Shown here: piece after piece, positions 25,958 through 41,655 of the stretch
Position numbering within the stretch: the first letter of the stretch is position 1
Layout of the letters: each line of letters opens with the position of its first letter
Assembly (NCBI GenBank): GCA_002841295.1
Contig: PHEU01000005.1
Coordinates: 1-64,000, forward strand
From: Actinobacteria bacterium HGW-Actinobacteria-6
GTDB taxonomy: Bacteria > Actinomycetota > Coriobacteriia > Anaerosomatales > Anaerosomataceae
Direction: 5' to 3'
Length of the DNA: 64,000 nt
Notes under the pieces: model-generated
Databases searched by the model: none
Told to the model about the DNA's origin: nothing
What the model saw: only the letters and a program-made list of their open reading frames with translations
Made by a program: the position numbers and the translations under genes

Positions 25958-27925
25958 GTGATTATCACCGTAGATCATGTGACGAAAACCGTTGGTGAAC
26001 GCGTCCTATTCCAGGACGCGTTTCTGCGCGTTGGCGTCCGAGACAGAATCGCCCTCGTCGGACCTAACGGCGCGGGCAAAACGACGCTGCTCGAAATCAT
26101 CGCCGGCGAGCAGGATCCCGAAGAGGGTCGCATCATCCTTGCGCGCGACGCGACGATCGGCTATCTCAAGCAAGAGGCCATCGAGATGGCCGGACGCAGC
26201 GTTCTTGCAGAGGTCCTGTCAGCGGCCTCCGAGGCAACATCTATCGAGCACAGGCTTCACCTGCTCGAGGAGCAGATGGCCGACGGCGAAGACGCAGAGC
26301 ATCTGCTCGGCGAGTACGGCCGCCTGCGTGACCGATACGAGCATCTCGGCGGATACACCATTGAGTCAGATGCGCGTGCCGTTCTCATGGGTCTTGGGTT
26401 CAAAGAACATGACCTGGTACGCGATTGCGTTGAGTTCTCTGGCGGATGGCTCATGCGCATCGCCATGGCGAAGCTTCTGCTTCGCCAGCCTGATGTGCTG
26501 CTGCTCGACGAGCCGACAAACCACCTGGACCTTGAGTCAGTCACCTGGCTCGAGACGTTCCTGCGCGGGTACGATGGCGCGATCCTCATCGTCAGCCACG
26601 ACCGTGCGTTCATGGACGGACTTGTTGACCATGTTGCCGAGATCGACCTCAAGACGCTCACGGTCTACCCGGGAACGTATGACGGGTTCATCAAGCAAAA
26701 GGCTCTCGCGCTCGAGCAGCTGAAGGCCGCGTACGAACAGCAGCAGCGCGAGATCGCCCATATGGAAGCGTTCATTGAGCGCTTCCGCTCCAAGAACACC
26801 AAAGCCAAGCAGGCTCAAGATCGCCAGAAGAAGCTCGACAAGATGGTGCGACTCGAGATTCCCGAGGAGCGCAAGACCGTCAAGTTCCGCTTCCCGCAGC
26901 CTGCGCGGACCGGCGAAGAGGTTATTCGACTCTCGAGCGTGGCCAAGTCGTATGGACCGCTGGTCGTGTACGACAAACTCGACCTGGCGCTGTATCGCGG
27001 CGACAAAGTCGCACTCGTTGGCCCGAACGGCGCCGGCAAGTCGACGCTTCTCAAGATGCTTGCCGGCGAGCTTGCACCGGATTCGGGCGATCGTGTCCTC
27101 GGCCACAGCGTCTCGGTCGCTTACTTTGCACAGCATCAGCTTGAAGCGCTTGATGTAAGGCGTACGGTTCTCGATGAACTCGCTAGTGCGGCTCCGGGGT
27201 GGACGCCGATGGAATGCCGTCGTCTTCTCGGCGCGTTCCTGTTTGTAGGCAACGACGTCATGAAGAAGGTGAAGGTGCTCTCCGGCGGAGAGCGCGCGAG
27301 GCTGGCGCTGGCGAAGCTCCTGGTGCAGCCGGCACCGCTTTTGTGCGTGGACGAGCCGACCAACCACCTCGACATCACCTCAAGTGACGTGCTCGAGCAG
27401 GCACTCAAGATGTACACCGGCACGCTTGTGCTCATCACCCACGATCGGCATCTAATCCGCAGTGTCGCGAACAAGGTCGTTGAGGTTCGCGATGGCGGTG
27501 CGCGTGTCTATGAGGGCGACTATGACTACTACCTGTTCAAGCGGGAGCAGTCCGGCGCCGGCTCCGTTGATCCCGACGAGAAGTCGAAGCCTGAGCCCGA
27601 GCACAAGGTCAAGAAGTCCTCGGAGCAGTCAGGCTACAAGAGTAAAGAACAGAAGCGCCTTGAGGCGGAGTCGCGCAATCAGGCATACCGTGCGACCAAG
27701 GAGCTCAAGAAGACGCTGACGGTGCTCGACAAGCAGCTTGCCGAGACACAGGCGCGTCACGCAGAGTTGATCGCCGAGATGGCCGATCCCGAGGTCTACG
27801 AGAACCAGGCACGGTTTGACAAGGTGATGGGGGAGTACAACACCGTCAAGCCGAAACTCAAGGAGCTCGAAGCGCAGTGGCTCAAGGCATCCGAGGCTGT
27901 GGAGGCGGCCGACGGGACTTTGTAA
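25958..27925 (+). CDS. ABC-F family ATP-binding protein
   Basis: 655 residues with two ATPase domains and no membrane segment. Domain 1: Walker A GPNGAGKT (about 35), signature [16 protein letters not shown], Walker [14 protein letters not shown]. Then the linker (about 245-320) rich in Lys/Glu ([19 protein letters not shown]). Domain 2: GPNGAGKS (about 358), [29 protein letters not shown]-terminal coiled coil (about 550-650) resembles that of Uup/EttA-type proteins. These act on the ribosome during translation; the C-terminal coil suggests a Uup-like member. GTG 25958 has no clear Shine-Dalgarno; see the regulatory note on the 30-base divergent gap. Confidence 0.92.
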
Positions 27926-27939
27926 CAATGTTTACAAAG
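27918..27939. promoter_or_regulatory. Inverted-repeat operator candidate over the nuo promoter -35 box
   Basis: CTTTGTAA-caatgt-TTACAAAG: perfect 8-bp arms with a 6-base spacer. It overlaps the end of the ABC-F gene and covers the predicted -35 hexamer. Its form (TTGTAA...TTACAA) is reminiscent of binding sites of redox regulators such as Rex, but it is not a consensus match. A related repeat lies at 28043-28064. Confidence 0.6.
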
Positions 27940-28042: not shown

Positions 28043-28064
28043 TGTAACTTTGTGTTACAAAGTT
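28043..28064. promoter_or_regulatory. Second inverted repeat in the nuo leader
   Basis: Two overlapping palindromes: TGTAAC-tttgt-GTTACA (28043-28059) and AACTTTGT-gtt-ACAAAGTT (28046-28064). The elements TGTAAC and TTACAAAG are shared with 27918-27939, so the same protein may bind both. Confidence 0.55.
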
Positions 28065-28096
28065 TGCGCCGTACTGCGGGAGGGGTGAGGGAGCAG

Positions 28097-30599: not shown

Positions 30600-31543
30600 C
30601 GCTACTCTGGGGCTTCTTGTGGGGCGTAGCGGGCATGACGGTCATCGCCGTCGGCGCTATCCTCGGCGTGTGGTGGGAGCGTAAGGTCGCAGCGCGCATT
30701 CAAATGCGGTACGGTCCGCAGCAGATCGGGCCGTTCGGCTCGCTGCAGATGATCGCCGATGTCCCGAAGCTGCTCTTCAAAGAAGACATCATTCCTGACT
30801 CGGCAGACAAGCCGATCTTCAAGTACGCTCCGCTCTTCGTTTTCGGGCCGATCGCTGTCTCGATGGTGGTCATTCCGTTCTCGGCCGGGTGGGCTCCGCT
30901 CAACACGAGCGTCGGCGTGCTGTTCTTCCTCGCAGTGCCGTCGATCGAGGTCATCGCGATCCTGCTCTCGGCATGGGCGAGTCACAACACGCTCTCAACG
31001 CTCGGCGGCATCCGCGCCACTGCGCAGATGATCAGCTACGAGGTGCCGCGGTCGCTTGCGGTGCTGGCGATCGTGCTCTTGGCCGGATCGCTTCGCCCGC
31101 TCGACGTCGTCGACGCCTGGCGCTGGTGGTGGCTGCCGCTCACGTTCATCGCGTTTCTCATCTACTTCATCGCATCGATCGCCGAGATGAACCGTGGCCC
31201 CTTTGACATCCCTGAAGCCGAGAGCGAGCTCGTCGCGGGCTACTTTGCGGATTACTCCGGCATGCGCTGGGCGTCGTTCATGATGGCCGAGTACGGCGGG
31301 ATGATCTCTGCGTCGCTCTTTGGTGCTGCTCTCTTCCTCGGCGCGGGTTGGCCGTTCACCGGAGCGCTCGGGGTCGTCGCGCTTATCGTCAAGACGATCG
31401 CGCTCATGACTATCGTCATGTGGGTCAAATGGACGCTCCCGCGCCTGCGGCAAGACCACCTGATGTCGTTCTGTTGGAAGGTGCTCACGCCGCTCGCGCT
31501 TGTGCAGCTTGTGATCGTAGGGGTGGTGCTTCCGTGGCTGTAG
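30596..31543 (+). CDS. nuoH: NADH-quinone oxidoreductase subunit H
   Basis: 315 residues with about eight membrane segments. Conserved features are the N-terminal ERKVAARIQMRYGPQ and the EMNRGPFDIPEAESELVAGY loop, which joins the quinone channel to the proton path. Its stop overlaps the start of the nuoI fusion gene by 10 bases. Confidence 0.95.
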   Translation: MTLLWGFLWGVAGMTVIAVGAILGVWWERKVAARIQMRYGPQQIGPFGSLQMIADVPKLLFKEDIIPDSADKPIFKYAPLFVFGPIAVSMVVIPFSAGWAPLNTSVGVLFFLAVPSIEVIAILLSAWASHNTLSTLGGIRATAQMISYEVPRSLAVLAIVLLAGSLRPLDVVDAWRWWWLPLTFIAFLIYFIASIAEMNRGPFDIPEAESELVAGYFADYSGMRWASFMMAEYGGMISASLFGAALFLGAGWPFTGALGVVALIVKTIALMTIVMWVKWTLPRLRQDHLMSFCWKVLTPLALVQLVIVGVVLPWL

Positions 31544-33579
31544 AACGCGACGACATCATCACTCCAGCGAGCGTCAGCAACGAGTATTCGCCCGGCGTGA
31601 AGGGCTTCCTTGAAGGCGTGCGCTCGCTTGTGACAGGACTTGGGATCACCGCGCGCATCAGCACCGAGAAGCCGGTGACCATCTGCTATCCGGCCGAGAA
31701 ATGGAGCGTCAGCCCTCGCTGGCGCGGTGCCCTCAGATTGCGCGGGGTTCTCGGCAGGGACGAGATTCCGCTCATCCGCGATGCCTCGGAGCTCTACAAC
31801 TCGGTCATCGAGGACCTCTACAAGGCCGAGCGTTTGCCGCCGTGCGTGGGTAACTGCCCCGCCAATGTCGACGCGCGCGGCCAGGGCTTCCTCATTGCCG
31901 AGGACCGCATTCCTGAAGCGTACGAGCTTGTCCGCGACCGCAACATATTGCCGGGTGTCCTCGGCCGAATCTGTCACCACCCGTGCGAGAGCGCTTGTCG
32001 GCGAAACTACTACGACGAGCCTGTCGCGATCAGACCGCTGCACCGATTTGCCTACGAGGAGTTCCAAAAGGTCGCCGCCGAGCGCCTCAAGCCGCTGCCT
32101 GTGACACAGGACAAGAGTGTCGCCGTTGTCGGCTCCGGACCGTCGGGTCTCACCGCTGCGTACGACCTTATGAAGCACGGCTACCGCGTTGTCATGTACG
32201 AACGCGAAGAGCGTCCCGGTGGGGCTCTGGGTAGCGGGGTCCCCGCGTATCGCTTGCCCCGGGACATTTTGTACAAGGAGATCGACGGGCTAGTCGCTCT
32301 TGGCATCGAGCTCCATTGCGGAGTCGAGATAGGGAAGTCCATGCCGCTAGCCGCGCTCCAGCGCGAGCACGCGGCAGTGCTCCTGGCCGTCGGCCTGCAA
32401 GAGAGTCGAATCCTTCCGATTCCAGGGCATGATGCAGAAGGCGTTGCCGGCGCACTCGAATTCCTCTGGGCCGCCAACAACAAGGGCGAGACGGGAGTCC
32501 GCGGCAAGAAGGTCTTCGTCATCGGCGGCGGCAACGTAGCCGTTGACGTCGCTCGCTGCGCGCTGCGGACGGGCGCAACCGAGGTTCGCCTCGCATCGCT
32601 TGAGTCCACCGAAGAGCTGCCGGCGCATCCCTGGGAGATCGAAGAGGCTCTCGACGAGGGCGTTATCGCGACGTGTTCGGTCGGTCCCGAAGAAGTGCTC
32701 ACGCAAGACGGCCACGTGACGGGAATGCGCGTCCGCGAGTGTCTCTCGGTGTTCGATGAGACCGGTCGTTTCTCACCGAAGTTCGGTACCGGGCTCTCTG
32801 ATTTCGAGTGCGACGTTGTCGTCTTCTCGATCGGTCAGGCCGCAAAGCTCGACACGCTTATCGCTGGAACCGAACTCCTGGTCTCGGGCCGCGGACAGCT
32901 GGTCGTCGACGGCACGCATTTCACTACCTCGGTCGACGGCGTCTTCGCGTGCGGCGAAGTTGTCACGGGCCCGGGTAGTGCGATCGGTTCCATCGCGACG
33001 GGCCATGAAGTCGCAACGTCGATGATCCGCTACCTCCAGGGGAATTCGCTCACCGACAACCGTACGCCTCGGCCGGTGCCGGTGTACTCCAAGTACGCCG
33101 TTGCGGACGTCACGGGTGTGGAGCGTTCGCGTTTGCGCTCGGTCATGCCGATGTCCAGGCCTGAGGACCGTGCCAAGGACTTCCGGCCTGTCGAGCTCGG
33201 CCTGACGCATCAGGAGGCCATGATCGAGGCTGCACGGTGCCTGCGCTGTCAGTCCGAGATCTGCGTGGGGTGCACATTCTGCGCGCGGACGTGTCCCGAT
33301 TACGCGATACAGGTAGAGCGCGTCGACGAGCCCGGCGGTCGGTGTCTCACGCGCTACGACCTCGATCTGACCAAGTGCGCATTCTGCGGTCTGTGTGCCG
33401 AGCAATGTCCGACCAACGCGCTCACGCACACCGGTCAATACGAACTCAGCTTCTTCCATCGCGATCTCATGGTATTCGACAAGGGCGAGATGCTTCGCTC
33501 GGGCGAAGGCACACGCGCTACCGGCCGAGACGGCATCACGCCTCCTCGCTGCAGTGCTCCGAAGCGAAGGGAGCTGTGA
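31534..33579 (+). CDS. NuoI with an inserted GltD-like FAD/Fe-S NAD(P)H oxidoreductase
   Basis: 681 residues from GTG 31534 (overlaps nuoH). Three parts in one unbroken frame. (1) Residues about 18-70 match the NuoI N-terminus: GFLEGVRSLVTGLG, then KPVTICYPAEKWSVSPRWRG. (2) Residues about 80-545 are a GltD-type module: N-terminal Fe-S domain with Cys104, Cys108 (CVGNC), Cys147, Cys151, Cys155 (CHHPCESAC); FAD site VVGSGPSGLTAA (about 199); second nucleotide site IGGGNVAVDVAR (about 330); FACGEVVTGPGSAIGSIATG near the end. (3) Residues about 565-660 are the NuoI double ferredoxin: Cys577-x2-Cys580-x2-Cys583-x3-Cys587 and Cys615-x2-Cys618-x2-Cys621-x3-Cys625, then a NuoI-like tail (FFHRDLMVFDKGEML). 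Two further cysteines (569, 572) precede the first cluster. The gene sits exactly where nuoI belongs. It probably feeds electrons from NAD(P)H through FAD and Fe-S into complex I, replacing NuoEFG; the direction and nucleotide are inference. Confidence 0.9.
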   Translation: MAVERDDIITPASVSNEYSPGVKGFLEGVRSLVTGLGITARISTEKPVTICYPAEKWSVSPRWRGALRLRGVLGRDEIPLIRDASELYNSVIEDLYKAERLPPCVGNCPANVDARGQGFLIAEDRIPEAYELVRDRNILPGVLGRICHHPCESACRRNYYDEPVAIRPLHRFAYEEFQKVAAERLKPLPVTQDKSVAVVGSGPSGLTAAYDLMKHGYRVVMYEREERPGGALGSGVPAYRLPRDILYKEIDGLVALGIELHCGVEIGKSMPLAALQREHAAVLLAVGLQESRILPIPGHDAEGVAGALEFLWAANNKGETGVRGKKVFVIGGGNVAVDVARCALRTGATEVRLASLESTEELPAHPWEIEEALDEGVIATCSVGPEEVLTQDGHVTGMRVRECLSVFDETGRFSPKFGTGLSDFECDVVVFSIGQAAKLDTLIAGTELLVSGRGQLVVDGTHFTTSVDGVFACGEVVTGPGSAIGSIATGHEVATSMIRYLQGNSLTDNRTPRPVPVYSKYAVADVTGVERSRLRSVMPMSRPEDRAKDFRPVELGLTHQEAMIEAARCLRCQSEICVGCTFCARTCPDYAIQVERVDEPGGRCLTRYDLDLTKCAFCGLCAEQCPTNALTHTGQYELSFFHRDLMVFDKGEMLRSGEGTRATGRDGITPPRCSAPKRREL

Positions 33580-37630: not shown

Positions 37631-39106
37631 GTGACGGCTCTAGCACAGCTCTTGGAGTCCCTGCGACCGATGCTGTCAATCGGCTGGCTTGCGGCAGCGC
37701 TGGCTGGCGCTGGCGCGCTTGCCGGTCTCGTTGCAGACATGTTCGATAGCCGCAAGACGGGCATCGCGCTGGTCGCACTTGGGATGGCTGCTGCCACTGT
37801 CGTGTCGCTCGCTGCGGCCCTTCTGCCCCTAGAGACACAGATCAGCGGCATCAGCAGCACATTTGCCGTCGTGTTGACCGGAGCGGGGTTCGCCGGTCTT
37901 GCCTCGGTGGTCTACTTCACTGCTTTCCTGTCGTGTGCCAGCGGACTGGGTACCGTTCGGGAGAACATAAGGGTTCCGGTCGCCGCACTGATTGCAGTCG
38001 GGGCCGTGGCCGGTCAGGTCCTCCTTGGCGCCGACGACGTCTTGGTGCTGTTCGTGGCACTCGAACTCATGGCACTTATCGCATACGCATTGGTCGCAGC
38101 GGCTGGTACCAATCGATCGGATGAGGCAGCGATCCGCTACTTCGTGCAGGGGTCCGTTGTCACCGGATTGGCGGTTCTCGGTCTCGCAGTGCTCATCGGC
38201 CTAGGCGGAGGCGTGAGCGGATATGGTGAACTCACAGCAGCGATCGGTCTCTTGGCGCCTGGAGCCGCTTTGCTCGGGGTAGTTCTCCTGGTAAGCGTGC
38301 TTGCGTTCAAGGTTGGAGCCTTCCCGTTCCATTCATGGGTGCCTGACGCCTACGAGAATGCGCCGGCAGGTGCAGCTGCATTTCTGTCGTCCGGCGCAAA
38401 GGCAGCCGCAATTGGCGGCTTCACCGTACTCTTTGCTCGCCTGCTGACGGTTGACCCGTTCCTGCCGGTCGCCGCTGCTGTGCGCATCATGGCTGTCGCG
38501 TCGATACTTTTCGGGAACCTCGCCGCGCTCAGACAGACATCAGTTGGGCGCATGCTCGGCTACTCAGGGATCGCGCAGGTTGGATACGCCCTCATCGGTC
38601 TTGCGATTTCCCCAAGGGATACACTCCTCTTCGCATCAACGTACGCGGTTGCAGCTGCGACAGCCTTCGTTGCGCTCGAGTACTTCCGTTTGGCCGAGCC
38701 GGGTTGGGATGGAAGCGTCGCCGGTTTGGCCGGCTATGGAAAGACCCACCGCATCGCCGCACTTTCGCTGACGATCAGCCTACTATCCCTCACGGGCATG
38801 CCGCTCATGGCAGGATTTTGGGGCAAGTTCTTCGTGTTCTACGCCGCGGGATCATCAGGGCTTCTGTGGCTGTCGGTTGTCGGGCTGATCGGCTCAGTCA
38901 TTTCGTTCGGCTACTACGGCCGCGTGATTCGTAGCCTCTATTTCGACGCAGCGAGTGCTGCAATTGTCGATCAAGACGAGCAGGGGAGCAGTGCATCACT
39001 TCCGAATGTTTGGCCCTCTGCGCTCGGCGCGAGTGTCATCGTACTCACGGGCATAGCACCGTTACTGTGGGGACTACAGCTTGTGTATGCACTCTTCAGT
39101 CTGTAG
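37631..39106 (+). CDS. nuoN: NADH-quinone oxidoreductase subunit N
   Basis: 491 residues from GTG 37631, with AGGAGGTGG upstream inside nuoM. Antiporter-like: LFVALELMALIAYALVA (Glu), KVGAFPFHSWVPDAYENAPAGAAAFLSSGAKAA, MLGYSGIAQVGYALIG. Last gene of the operon, followed by a terminator about 95 bases on. Confidence 0.95.
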   Translation: MTALAQLLESLRPMLSIGWLAAALAGAGALAGLVADMFDSRKTGIALVALGMAAATVVSLAAALLPLETQISGISSTFAVVLTGAGFAGLASVVYFTAFLSCASGLGTVRENIRVPVAALIAVGAVAGQVLLGADDVLVLFVALELMALIAYALVAAAGTNRSDEAAIRYFVQGSVVTGLAVLGLAVLIGLGGGVSGYGELTAAIGLLAPGAALLGVVLLVSVLAFKVGAFPFHSWVPDAYENAPAGAAAFLSSGAKAAAIGGFTVLFARLLTVDPFLPVAAAVRIMAVASILFGNLAALRQTSVGRMLGYSGIAQVGYALIGLAISPRDTLLFASTYAVAAATAFVALEYFRLAEPGWDGSVAGLAGYGKTHRIAALSLTISLLSLTGMPLMAGFWGKFFVFYAAGSSGLLWLSVVGLIGSVISFGYYGRVIRSLYFDAASAAIVDQDEQGSSASLPNVWPSALGASVIVLTGIAPLLWGLQLVYALFSL

Positions 39107-39137
39107 GCACCTGGAATACAGCAATTCCCATGCAGTC

Positions 39138-39166
39138 TTGCATTGGCCTGAGCATCGCAATATAAT
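39138..39166 (+). promoter_or_regulatory. Strong sigma-70-like promoter after nuoN
   Basis: TTGCAT (39138-39143), exactly 17 bases, TATAAT (39161-39166). The predicted start is near 39173, only about 30 bases before the terminator hairpin at 39202. Confidence 0.65.
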
Positions 39167-39171
39167 CCCCT

Positions 39172-39240
39172 CAAGAGTTGCTTCGGCAACCCCTTACCCC
39201 TGAGCCTCAAGGTGCCGGCCTTGGGGCTCCCCCTTTTCCC
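39172..39240 (+). ncRNA. Candidate small RNA or attenuator leader
   Basis: The segment between the promoter at 39138-39166 and the terminator folds into two adjacent hairpins: GTTGC-TTCG-GCAAC (39177-39190) and the terminator stem (39202-39229). It could be a free RNA of about 65 bases or the attenuated leader of the small gene at 39327. It matches no RNA family I recognise. This unit fills most of the 220-base gap 39107-39326. Confidence 0.4.
39202..39238 (+). terminator. Terminator of the nuo operon and/or small RNA
   Basis: GAGCCTCAAGG (39202-39212), 6-base loop, CCTTGGGGCTC (39219-39229): an 11-bp stem with a G-T pair, followed by CCCCTTTTCCC. Confidence 0.75.
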
Positions 39241-39326
39241 AAAGAGATTTCTTGAGGAGTTTGGCCAAATGGCTGCCTGATTCACCATTAAGAACAGCAT
39301 TCATTCAGCCGATACATTCTCCTGAC

Positions 39327-39590
39327 ATGATTATTTCTGACGAGCAGGTACAACGTGTTGTTGAATACCTGCATACAACAGATTCACATCGATTCCCGGT
39401 CGACGTGCCGCTGCCTTCTTGGGCGACGTCAGAGCTGGTGGATTTTGTGGTTCATGAGCTCGAGCTGATTCCTGACGTTCGTGCCGACAGAGTAGCGCAA
39501 GCCCGGGACATGCTCGCGTTCGAGCTTCCCGCCTCTGAAGTCGTGGCGGACAAGCTCATCGGACGCGTTCTCTCAGACTCAATTCGCTAG
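39327..39590 (+). CDS. Small protein with FlgM-like C-terminal half
   Basis: 87 residues from ATG 39327; no ribosome-binding site is evident, and a TTG at 39252 gives a longer alternative. The C-terminal part (IPDVRADRVAQARDMLAFELPASEVVADKLIGRVLSD) follows the pattern of anti-sigma-28 factor FlgM (VRxDRVxxxRxxIxxGxYxVxxxxVAxKL). The N-terminal half (DEQVQRVVEYL) does not. No flagellar gene or sigma-28 gene is in the window, so a different anti-sigma or adaptor role is possible. Confidence 0.55.
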   Translation: MIISDEQVQRVVEYLHTTDSHRFPVDVPLPSWATSELVDFVVHELELIPDVRADRVAQARDMLAFELPASEVVADKLIGRVLSDSIR

Positions 39591-39693
39591 GCCTTCGTAA
39601 CTGTGTCGAGCAGACGACGCTCATTGAGCGTTGACTCTGCTACGATTAGGCAGCCTCAAACCATGTCCGATGACTGTTCCGGGGGTCACCTGC

Positions 39694-39975
39694 GTGAAGA
39701 AGTCGGCGCGCACCGTTCTCACAATCGTTATGGATATCCTCGTGCTGGCCGCTGTCTGCGTGACTATCGGCATCGTTGTGAGATTTTTCGGATCGCTAGC
39801 GAACACTTCTCTCGGCGAGTCGTATCTTCGTTTTGCATCTCTGCTGCGGATTCCCGCAGGGTTTGAGGGGATAGACTCACCGTATGGGGGTTCCTTCGAC
39901 GTGAACGCGACTATCACCGTCGGTGTTGTGCTTATGCTCGAGTGGGCACTGAGTATTGCCAGACGGCGCGCGTAA
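39694..39975 (+). CDS. Small membrane protein of unknown function upstream of pilB
   Basis: 93 residues from GTG 39694 with GGGGG 8 bases upstream; longer in-frame starts exist to 39631. One clear N-terminal membrane helix (about 6-30, LTIVMDILVLAAVCVTIGIVV) and a second C-terminal one (about 70-87), ending in RRRA. The middle (YLRFASLLRIPAGFEGIDSPYGGSFD) is a short outside loop. It lies 12 bases before the PilB-like ATPase gene, so it may belong to the same machine. No family recognised. Confidence 0.7.
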   Translation: MKKSARTVLTIVMDILVLAAVCVTIGIVVRFFGSLANTSLGESYLRFASLLRIPAGFEGIDSPYGGSFDVNATITVGVVLMLEWALSIARRRA

Positions 39976-39987
39976 CTGGAGGTTTGA

Positions 39988-41655
39988 ATGACGTATACGC
40001 GTGAGCGTCTCGGCGAATTGCTCATGAGGAGCGGCCGTATAACGGAGAAAGAGCTTGCCGATGCGCTCGCTATTCAGGGGACCGATGGCGGAAAACTCGG
40101 ACAGGTGCTCGTTCGTCAACTCGTCTTGGATGAGGACGACATTGCGCGTACCCTGGCCGAACAGAAGGGTCTCGAGTACGTCAGTCTGACGACGTACAAG
40201 ATCGACCGCGAGGCTGTTGCTCGGATTCCCGATCGCGTCGCAAGGCGTTGCCTCGTCATCCCAATCGGCTACAACGGCGGTTCGATCGTCCTAGCCATGG
40301 CCGACCCGCTCGACATCGAGACCATCGACGATGTGAAGGTCCGTACCGGCATGAACGTACAGCCGGTAGTTGCGACCGCTACGCAGATTCAGTACGCGAT
40401 CGAGAAGTACATCACGTCAGCAGACGCTTTCCAGGACATCATGGTCACTGCCGAAGAGGACGAAGTCGAGACCGATGTCGGTGACGGTGATGAGGATGTT
40501 CCAGTTGTGCGACTGGTCAACCAGCTCATCCGCGAAGCGGTCATGGAGAACGCAAGCGACATACACATCGAGCCAGGAGACAAGTCCATTCGCATCAGGT
40601 ATCGCGTGGACGGCGTCCTACATGAGGTCATGCAGCTTCCTCTCTCGGTCAAGGCGGGTGTCATCAGCCGTGTCAAGATCATGGCCGAGATGAATATCGC
40701 CGAGCGCCGGCGCCCACAGGACGGGCGCATCAGCATCGTCATGAACGGACGCGGTGTCGATCTGCGTGTCGCCACGCTGCCAACACCCGCCGGTGAGTCG
40801 ATTGTCATTCGCGTCCTGAACCACGACATGGAGATGCTCACCCTGGAGATGCTCGGTATGGCGCCGGAGCATATGAAGACCGTCCAACGCTTCCTGGAGC
40901 GCCCGTACGGTGCGGTTCTTGTGTCTGGTCCGACGGGGTCGGGCAAGTCGACATCGCTGTATGCAGGGCTTGTTCGCATCAACCAGCCCACGCGAAAGAT
41001 CATCACGATCGAGGATCCGATCGAGTATCAGATTCCGGGTGTCACGCAGATGGCGATCAACCCCGTCATCGGGCTGACGTTTGTCAGGCTGCTCCGAACC
41101 GTGCTGCGCTCGGATCCCGATGTTGTGCTCGTTGGTGAGATTCGTGATGCCGAGACAGCCGAGATCGCGGTGCGCGCAGCCCTGACCGGTCACCTCGTGC
41201 TGTCATCCATCCACACCAATGATGCTCCATCGGCTCTCACGCGACTGGTCGACATGGAGGTTGCGCCATACATCACGTCATCCGCGCTCATCGGCGTTAT
41301 CGCTCAGCGCCTTGCACGTCGTCTCTGCCCGAAGTGCAAGAAACGGGTTAAGTTGTGCGACGACGTGCTTCTCGCCGCTGGATTCAGCCAGGAAGAGGTT
41401 GATGGCAAACTGAAGGTCTACGGACCTAAGGGGTGCGATGATTGTGCAGGCACGGGGTATCGCGGACGAATCGGGCTTTTCGAGGTCATGGAGATGAGTG
41501 ACGAGCTCGAGCGACTCTTCTTGCGCCAGGCTCCCTCCGACCAGCTGCGCGAAGTCGCGCTCGCCGCGGGTATGGTCTCACTACGCAGAGATGCACTCGA
41601 CAAGGTTGCCGCAGGTCTCACCAGTCTAGAAGAGGTCAACCGAGTCGTCGTCTAG
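39988..41655 (+). CDS. pilB: Type IV pilus / type II secretion assembly ATPase (PilB/GspE family)
   Basis: 555 residues. An N-terminal MshEN-type domain (LGELLMRSGRITEKELADAL...; residues 5-140), then the ATPase: Walker A GPTGSGKS (about 314-321), Asp box (ASDIHIEPGDKSIRIRYRVDG, about 187-207), Walker B/His box LVGEIRDAETAEIAVRAALTGH and a zinc tetracysteine Cys447, Cys450, Cys483, Cys486. It powers pilin or pseudopilin assembly at the inner membrane. No pilC, pilT or pilin genes are next to it; the upstream 93-residue membrane protein is its only close neighbour. PilB versus GspE is not settled by the sequence. Confidence 0.9.
   Translation: MTYTRERLGELLMRSGRITEKELADALAIQGTDGGKLGQVLVRQLVLDEDDIARTLAEQKGLEYVSLTTYKIDREAVARIPDRVARRCLVIPIGYNGGSIVLAMADPLDIETIDDVKVRTGMNVQPVVATATQIQYAIEKYITSADAFQDIMVTAEEDEVETDVGDGDEDVPVVRLVNQLIREAVMENASDIHIEPGDKSIRIRYRVDGVLHEVMQLPLSVKAGVISRVKIMAEMNIAERRRPQDGRISIVMNGRGVDLRVATLPTPAGESIVIRVLNHDMEMLTLEMLGMAPEHMKTVQRFLERPYGAVLVSGPTGSGKSTSLYAGLVRINQPTRKIITIEDPIEYQIPGVTQMAINPVIGLTFVRLLRTVLRSDPDVVLVGEIRDAETAEIAVRAALTGHLVLSSIHTNDAPSALTRLVDMEVAPYITSSALIGVIAQRLARRLCPKCKKRVKLCDDVLLAAGFSQEEVDGKLKVYGPKGCDDCAGTGYRGRIGLFEVMEMSDELERLFLRQAPSDQLREVALAAGMVSLRRDALDKVAAGLTSLEEVNRVVV

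Follow-up and report, generated by a model that had tools for sequence, protein, structure and literature searches.

A conserved small RNA of the order Anaerosomatales/OPB41 and a candidate pairing site in formate dehydrogenase leaders

Anatomy and conservation of the small RNA unit

The window analyzed here is a stretch of 64,000 nucleotides from Actinobacteria bacterium HGW-Actinobacteria-6 (contig PHEU01000005.1, positions 1 to 64,000, assembly GCA_002841295.1), in which a small RNA unit (39138-39237, + strand) lies between nuoN and a small FlgM-like gene. The reading that we somewhat favor, based on sequence comparisons, is that this unit, transcribed on its own, specifies a regulatory RNA of about 65 nt that acts in trans, occurs order-wide and pairs with mRNAs through its linker, the leader of fdhA being the best candidate target.

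All the parts of the unit were located in the sequence, on the + strand. The -35 element TTGCAT (39138..39143) and the -10 element TATAAT (39161..39166) are separated by a spacer of 17 nt. The predicted transcript, the ends of which are inferred from the promoter position, the conserved block and the fold, spans about 65 nt (39173..39237). It includes hairpin 1, with 5 bp and a UUCG loop (39177..39190), the 11-nt C-rich linker CCCUUACCCCU proposed to be the pairing region (39191..39201), which is mostly unpaired in the predicted ensemble, a terminal hairpin of 12 bp with a GCCG loop (39202..39229) and, 3' of the latter, the tract CCCCUUUU (39230..39237), which is the probable 3' end. Four C's (CCCC) stand between the terminal stem and the U run, i.e., the U tract is interrupted. 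When the segment 39175-39240 was folded, the z-score was -3.13 and none of 200 shuffles was equally stable. This layout of promoter, UUCG hairpin and terminal hairpin, along with the length of about 65 nt, agrees with an original prediction made from the letters of the window, every part being found in its place. The promoter had been called near-consensus, which holds for the perfect -10 element but not for the -35 element, which matches TTGACA at only three positions out of six; a scan of 38000-41000 for consensus promoters reported none. Likewise, the terminal hairpin described as an 11-bp terminator is present, but it folds as 12 bp and is followed by CCCC before the U run; it is absent from the terminator scanner's list.

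The promoter was compared in 62 copies of the unit (L124 and L125, which have no element, were left out of the copy counts, and the duplicates L077, L109, and L122 were left out of row set A1). TTG and TANNNT occur at the equivalent positions in 62/62 copies, with a spacer of 16-18 nt and in the same 20-nt slot, while random placements gave a mean of 0.29 such copies and a maximum of 3. It is because of this conservation, and not because of the match to the consensus, that the promoter reading is convincing; the constancy of the spacing had been put forward as a check in the original prediction, as had a covariance search in relatives, which yielded compensatory pairs in hairpin 1 and showed the terminal stem to be near-invariant in sequence instead.

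Hairpin 1 occurs mainly in two forms, one with 5 bp and UNCG-type loops and the other, found in other families, with 7 bp and GNRA loops. Its pairs change between copies (GUUGC/GCAAC, GCUGC/GCAGC, and GGGAAC/GUUCCC in L123), and in a single copy, L088, neither form gives a good stem. The long form was studied in row set A3, consisting of the 10 distinct rows among the 27 long-form copies, from which repeats and L119, L121, and L122 were excluded. All the cells of these rows pair, which was matched by 0/500 shuffles, and the covariation score was also reached by 0/500; three pairs change on both sides (reached by 39/500 shuffles), and the number of further pair types was reached by 234/500. The linker sequence UUACCCCU is near-invariant, and its UACCCCU part is invariant in all 62 copies. 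The core UACCCCUGAGCC[U/C][C/U]AAGGUGCCGGCCUUG[G/A]GGCUC, which contains the terminal hairpin, has just three variable positions in the 62 copies; over the 36 nt compared, 47 of the 61 other copies are identical to that of the window, and the lowest identity is 94%; the copies were collected by similarity, so that very divergent ones could escape. The 3' tract is moderately conserved, being [CT]-rich and then T-rich. A terminator stem with both arms kept letter for letter is unusual, because compensation would be free: the terminal hairpin keeps its sequence and not merely its structure, which points to a specific contact.

Two other kinds of conserved element were considered and rejected. A coding element is disfavored by differences in length, of 4 nt between the two forms of hairpin 1 and, in some copies, of 1 nt in the linker; three of the six frames are also interrupted by a stop within the core of every one of the 62 copies, although the other three are mostly open. 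In the case of a site acting only as DNA, the covariation in hairpin 1 and the kept promoter spacing are contrary to it. Judged on the comparative evidence, the unit exceeds what would be expected by chance.

Distribution and promoter control

The small RNA is present in 60 of the 69 genomes of the order Anaerosomatales/OPB41. Among the nine genomes in which it was not detected, five are 65-74% complete, and the completeness of the other four (G018, G048, G051, and G062) is 90% or more. In a search of 61 genomes, the strong matches were limited to an island of about 88-100% identity (approximately 39161-39242), whereas, between these genomes, the identity of the protein adjoining this island amounts to just 32-63%. 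When 84,980 species' genomes were scanned independently with a pattern, 46 stretches were retrieved, their titles being Coriobacteriia, Coriobacteriales, Anaerosomatales or actinobacterial bins of lower precision; two of them, labelled Aeromicrobium and Slackia, apparently correspond to the order genomes G013 and G020. With the covariance model, 396 genomes of the class gave the 60 order members and one other match, G231 (38.7 bits), which was rejected as a homolog, since its terminal stem differs and hairpin 1 is missing; 396 genomes of the phylum gave four order members and three weak matches (26-30 bits). No convincing copy outside the order was found in these 396 class-wide and 396 phylum-wide genomes, which were searched with stricter filters that lose weak matches. 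There is one match per genome, apart from G025 and G032, with two each: G025, in which the flanks of the two copies differ, is probably a mixed bin, and the two copies in G032, which are identical over 400 nt, are probably an assembly duplicate.

As the original prediction had stated, the RNA family is not a recognized one: no covariance model of Rfam 15 matched the region 39050-39400 up to E=10, and at gathering scores the only Rfam match in the whole window was a tRNA. The 6C RNA model (RF01066) matched none of 21 order genomes, and in the control it matched only Corynebacterium glutamicum, below the cut-off, which indicates low sensitivity; 6C RNA, like the other Rfam families, was rejected since no model matches. 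Among the titles listed by literature searches that combined the order or the class with terms for RNA, none concerned a small RNA from these bacteria. Given its own conserved promoter, the covarying hairpin 1, the near-invariant linker and terminal hairpin and the normally single copy, the self-contained small RNA of the original prediction is supported, and we are almost certain that the unit is a genuine small RNA gene whose family Rfam does not contain.

A dyad of the form TTGTGAA-N4-TTCACAA, with at most 3 mismatches, was found upstream of the -35 element in 23 of 61 copies (L112, with little upstream DNA, was left out of this count) and in 0.2% of the shuffles. Its center lies 9 or 14-15 nt before the -35 element in 22 of these 23 copies, and 352 kb of flanking sequence contain 14 sites with no more than 2 mismatches, 13 of them at the small RNA promoter. 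The dyad was not seen in any of the five genomes of the genus of the window, and the perfect palindrome of the operator occurs in none of the 69 order genomes. Rex-type domains are encoded in 66/69 and CRP-type domains in 69/69 of these genomes; the dyad fits Rex and CRP operators alike. The occurrence of the dyad in many lineages suggests that the promoter might be controlled by a redox (Rex) or a CRP-type regulator. G051 is the sole genome at least 90% complete that has no Rex-type domain, and it also has no small RNA, which is a single case.

A candidate pairing site in formate dehydrogenase leaders

The exact complement of the linker, AGGGGTAAGG, was searched for outside the RNA in 27 genomes of the family. 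Four of its 23 sites lie in the leader of one gene, encoding a formate dehydrogenase-like molybdoenzyme, and all four directly follow a molybdenum cofactor (Moco) riboswitch (RF01055, 61-79 bits). The search for this riboswitch was extended to the order, where it gave 123 matches (summed per genome) in 63 of the 69 genomes, and 114 of the 123 leaders were read, L310 being excluded since its leader ends at a contig edge. The fdhA-type leaders were sorted from the others by a crude protein motif (RRDF, RRNF, CPYC or TTC[PG]Y within 560 nt). An exact match of at least 8 nt to AGGGGTAAGGG, at most 110 nt from the aptamer, is present in 33 of the 42 fdhA-type leaders and in 0 of the 72 other Moco leaders, the corresponding shuffles giving 0.9% and 0.2%. 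The complement extends over 12-14 nt in G002, G005, G013, and G015 (14 nt in G002), and two leaders carrying GGGGUAGGGG retain the pairing via G:U. Many of the non-fdhA Moco leaders precede ASTTSTQDSGLF-type binding proteins, the ASTTST-type proteins being named TupA.

The site in the genome of the window (L286) is CTCTGGGGTAAGGGAGGC. Its predicted duplex with the small RNA (-24.6 kcal/mol) is below all 555 random leader stretches, the best of which gave -23.6. This was also the outcome in some of the other leaders tried (5/9 in all), the weakest being that of G007 (-19.0). When the GC-rich flanks of the linker were included, the duplex energies were unspecific, beating all 200 shuffles in 4/42 fdhA-type and 1/72 other leaders. 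The motif GGGUA[A/G]GG is present in 35 of the 42 fdhA-type leaders, which is the unselected figure; the 35 rows of the leader alignment were chosen by GGGTA[AG]GG, and the conservation of those eight columns is so by construction. The fdhA-type Moco leaders, including L286, have GGGGTAAGGGAGGC in common, and a short self-complementary stretch and a terminator-like hairpin often come next, in this order; GGGGTAAGGGAGGC is not present in the other Moco leaders.

Proposed mechanism, alternatives and known systems

According to the mechanism that we propose, the linker CCCUUACCCC would pair with G-rich sites in mRNAs, and it is probable, from the comparisons above, that the small RNA acts by base pairing of this kind. 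The best candidate site, GGGGUAAGGG, lies between the Moco riboswitch and the terminator in the leader of the formate dehydrogenase-type gene; as a target, this leader is plausible but unproven, and could equally turn out to be one or not. The small RNA would compete there with the leader's own pairing between GGGAGG and the CCUCCC of the aptamer, and this competition might alter whether fdhA is expressed, up or down. In many lineages, a Rex- or CRP-type regulator may act on the small RNA promoter. More tentatively, and with considerable doubt, the small RNA and the riboswitch might form a two-input gate on formate dehydrogenase, both acting on the leader segment just before the terminator: the riboswitch would sense the molybdenum cofactor, and the small RNA, under redox or CRP-type control in many lineages, would signal the energy state.

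Several results weigh against pairing with the fdhA leader, and some of them favor another explanation, namely that the structured RNA acts mainly through contact with a protein (or with the machinery of transcription or translation), and that the leader motif has nothing to do with it, its only partner being the Moco aptamer in cis. The arms and loop of the terminal hairpin are near-invariant, beyond what linker pairing needs, and linker pairing does not account for this stem. Cis pairing is possible between the GGGAGG of the motif and the CCUCCC of the aptamer, as in the folds of some leaders (L242), where the motif pairs with the aptamer and UAA is bulged; the A and G just past the complement are kept in 30/35 and 33/35 aligned leaders, which small-RNA pairing does not explain. 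The 23 sites of AGGGGTAAGG compare with 34 for the reversed control, so that there is no general enrichment of the linker complement throughout the genomes. Moreover, the co-occurrence of the RNA and the leader motif is not significant (32/60 vs. 3/9, p = 0.31), 25 genomes carrying the RNA show no fdhA-type leader among the leaders read, the linker varies too little for covariation with a partner to show, and the leaders are homologous, so their counts are not independent events. What the protein-contact explanation leaves aside is that the linker itself is invariant and predicted to be single-stranded, and that the motif present in most of the fdhA-type leaders is covered by cis pairing mainly in its 3' part. 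In addition, GGGGUAAGGG is kept while AGGC is lost in L265 and, partly, in L280 and L285, which favors pairing in trans. On balance, we regard this explanation as rather unlikely, though deserving of attention.

Two further explanations would tie the unit to its neighbors. With regard to INDEPENDENCE from the neighbors, the usual order is nuoM-nuoN-RNA-FlgM-like-membrane protein-pilB, and the position of the RNA upstream of the FlgM-like gene on the same strand in most loci, together with the hairpin at its end, would fit an attenuator or riboswitch leader of this gene and the pilB operon, as the original prediction had envisaged. However, the FlgM-like gene has a sigma-28-type promoter of its own, TAAG-N15-GCCGATAC (39289..39315, + strand), outside the small RNA. 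In 54 of the 62 copies, as against 0.008 expected, a site of the form AA[GA]-N12..17-CCGAT[AT] lies no more than 300 nt downstream of the RNA, and such a site precedes the ATG in 33 of the 36 loci (out of 62) in which the start of this gene could be parsed. The gene is therefore transcribed separately, and the idea of an attenuator fails. The RNA is also inverted relative to both neighbors in L087 (G038), it occurs with no FlgM-like match downstream in loci including L093, L097, and L120, and it is undetected in G018 and G062, where nuoN and the FlgM-like gene are kept; nor was any conserved alternative fold seen. Alternatively, the unit might do no more than terminate transcription of the nuo operon, or be a 3' end processed from the nuo transcript, as its place directly 3' of nuoN in most loci and a hairpin that could also halt nuo transcripts would allow. 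Against this stand the unit's own promoter, conserved in every copy, several copies (L067, L070, L072, L081, L100, L117, and L123) with no NuoN match within the at least 2.9 kb fetched upstream, and the fact that a plain terminator has no need to keep the sequence of its stem. We hold the attenuator to be very improbable, and the nuo terminator no less so; judging from the sequence, the small RNA is intergenic and separate from its neighbors, with its own promoter and a terminator in which the U tract is interrupted.

The trans-acting RNA proposed here can be compared with known systems. According to passages of PMC5419742, the C-rich regions of RoxS/RsaE in Bacillus and Staphylococcus pair with G-rich sites, and its promoter is repressed by Rex. 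The present RNA resembles it in having a C-rich linker and a Rex- or CRP-like promoter dyad in 23/61 copies, but differs in having one short linker, a dyad placed upstream of the -35 element and no sequence match in Rfam. The staphylococcal IsrR, as described in parts of PMC9410917, has predicted single-stranded C-rich regions and targets the fdhA mRNA; it is Fur-regulated and has three such regions, and its pairing site on that mRNA is close to the ribosome binding site. In the present case, by contrast, the pairing is a predicted one and the candidate site lies within a riboswitch leader, at a considerable distance 5' of the start codon. 6C RNA is likewise a small actinobacterial RNA with unpaired C-rich stretches, but its C runs are in two hairpin loops, as a section of PMC4046766 indicates, instead of in a linker. 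The btuB mRNA of E. coli is subject to both a cis riboswitch and the trans-acting small RNA OmrA (PMC11162775); there, a cobalamin riboswitch is concerned, the control has been experimentally shown and Hfq is involved, whereas here a Moco riboswitch is concerned and the case is predicted from sequence. Combined control by a riboswitch and a small RNA was presented as little studied in 2024 in the abstract of that article. Terminator-type platforms are mentioned in a passage of the article on the Moco motif (PMC2408646), and the first two isolates of the order grow on formate or hydrogen, according to a passage of PMC9686372. The present findings would provide a widespread, barely cultivated order with a conserved regulatory RNA, for which a candidate target can be named, and joint control by a riboswitch and a small RNA could be tested on this example; the near-invariant terminal hairpin is a puzzle of its own.

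Some minor observations concern the surrounding genes. The FlgM-like protein (39327-39590) is conserved in the order, and the label given to it in the original prediction is a weak one, since it matches PF04316 at only 13.2 bits, where the cut-off is 25, and neither NCBIfam nor PDB gave a match. The sigma-28-type promoter directly precedes its gene, which would give an almost leaderless mRNA upstream of pilB. In the nuo region, a long open reading frame (31348-33579 in the list of such frames) resembling a pyridine-nucleotide-dependent oxidoreductase with ferredoxin-type cysteines occupies the place expected for nuoI. Between a gene for an ABC-F-type ATPase and the first nuo gene are two palindromes, CTTTGTAACAATGTTTACAAAG (27918-27939) and ACTTTGTGTTACAAAGT (approximately 28048-28065), which are possible nuo operators.
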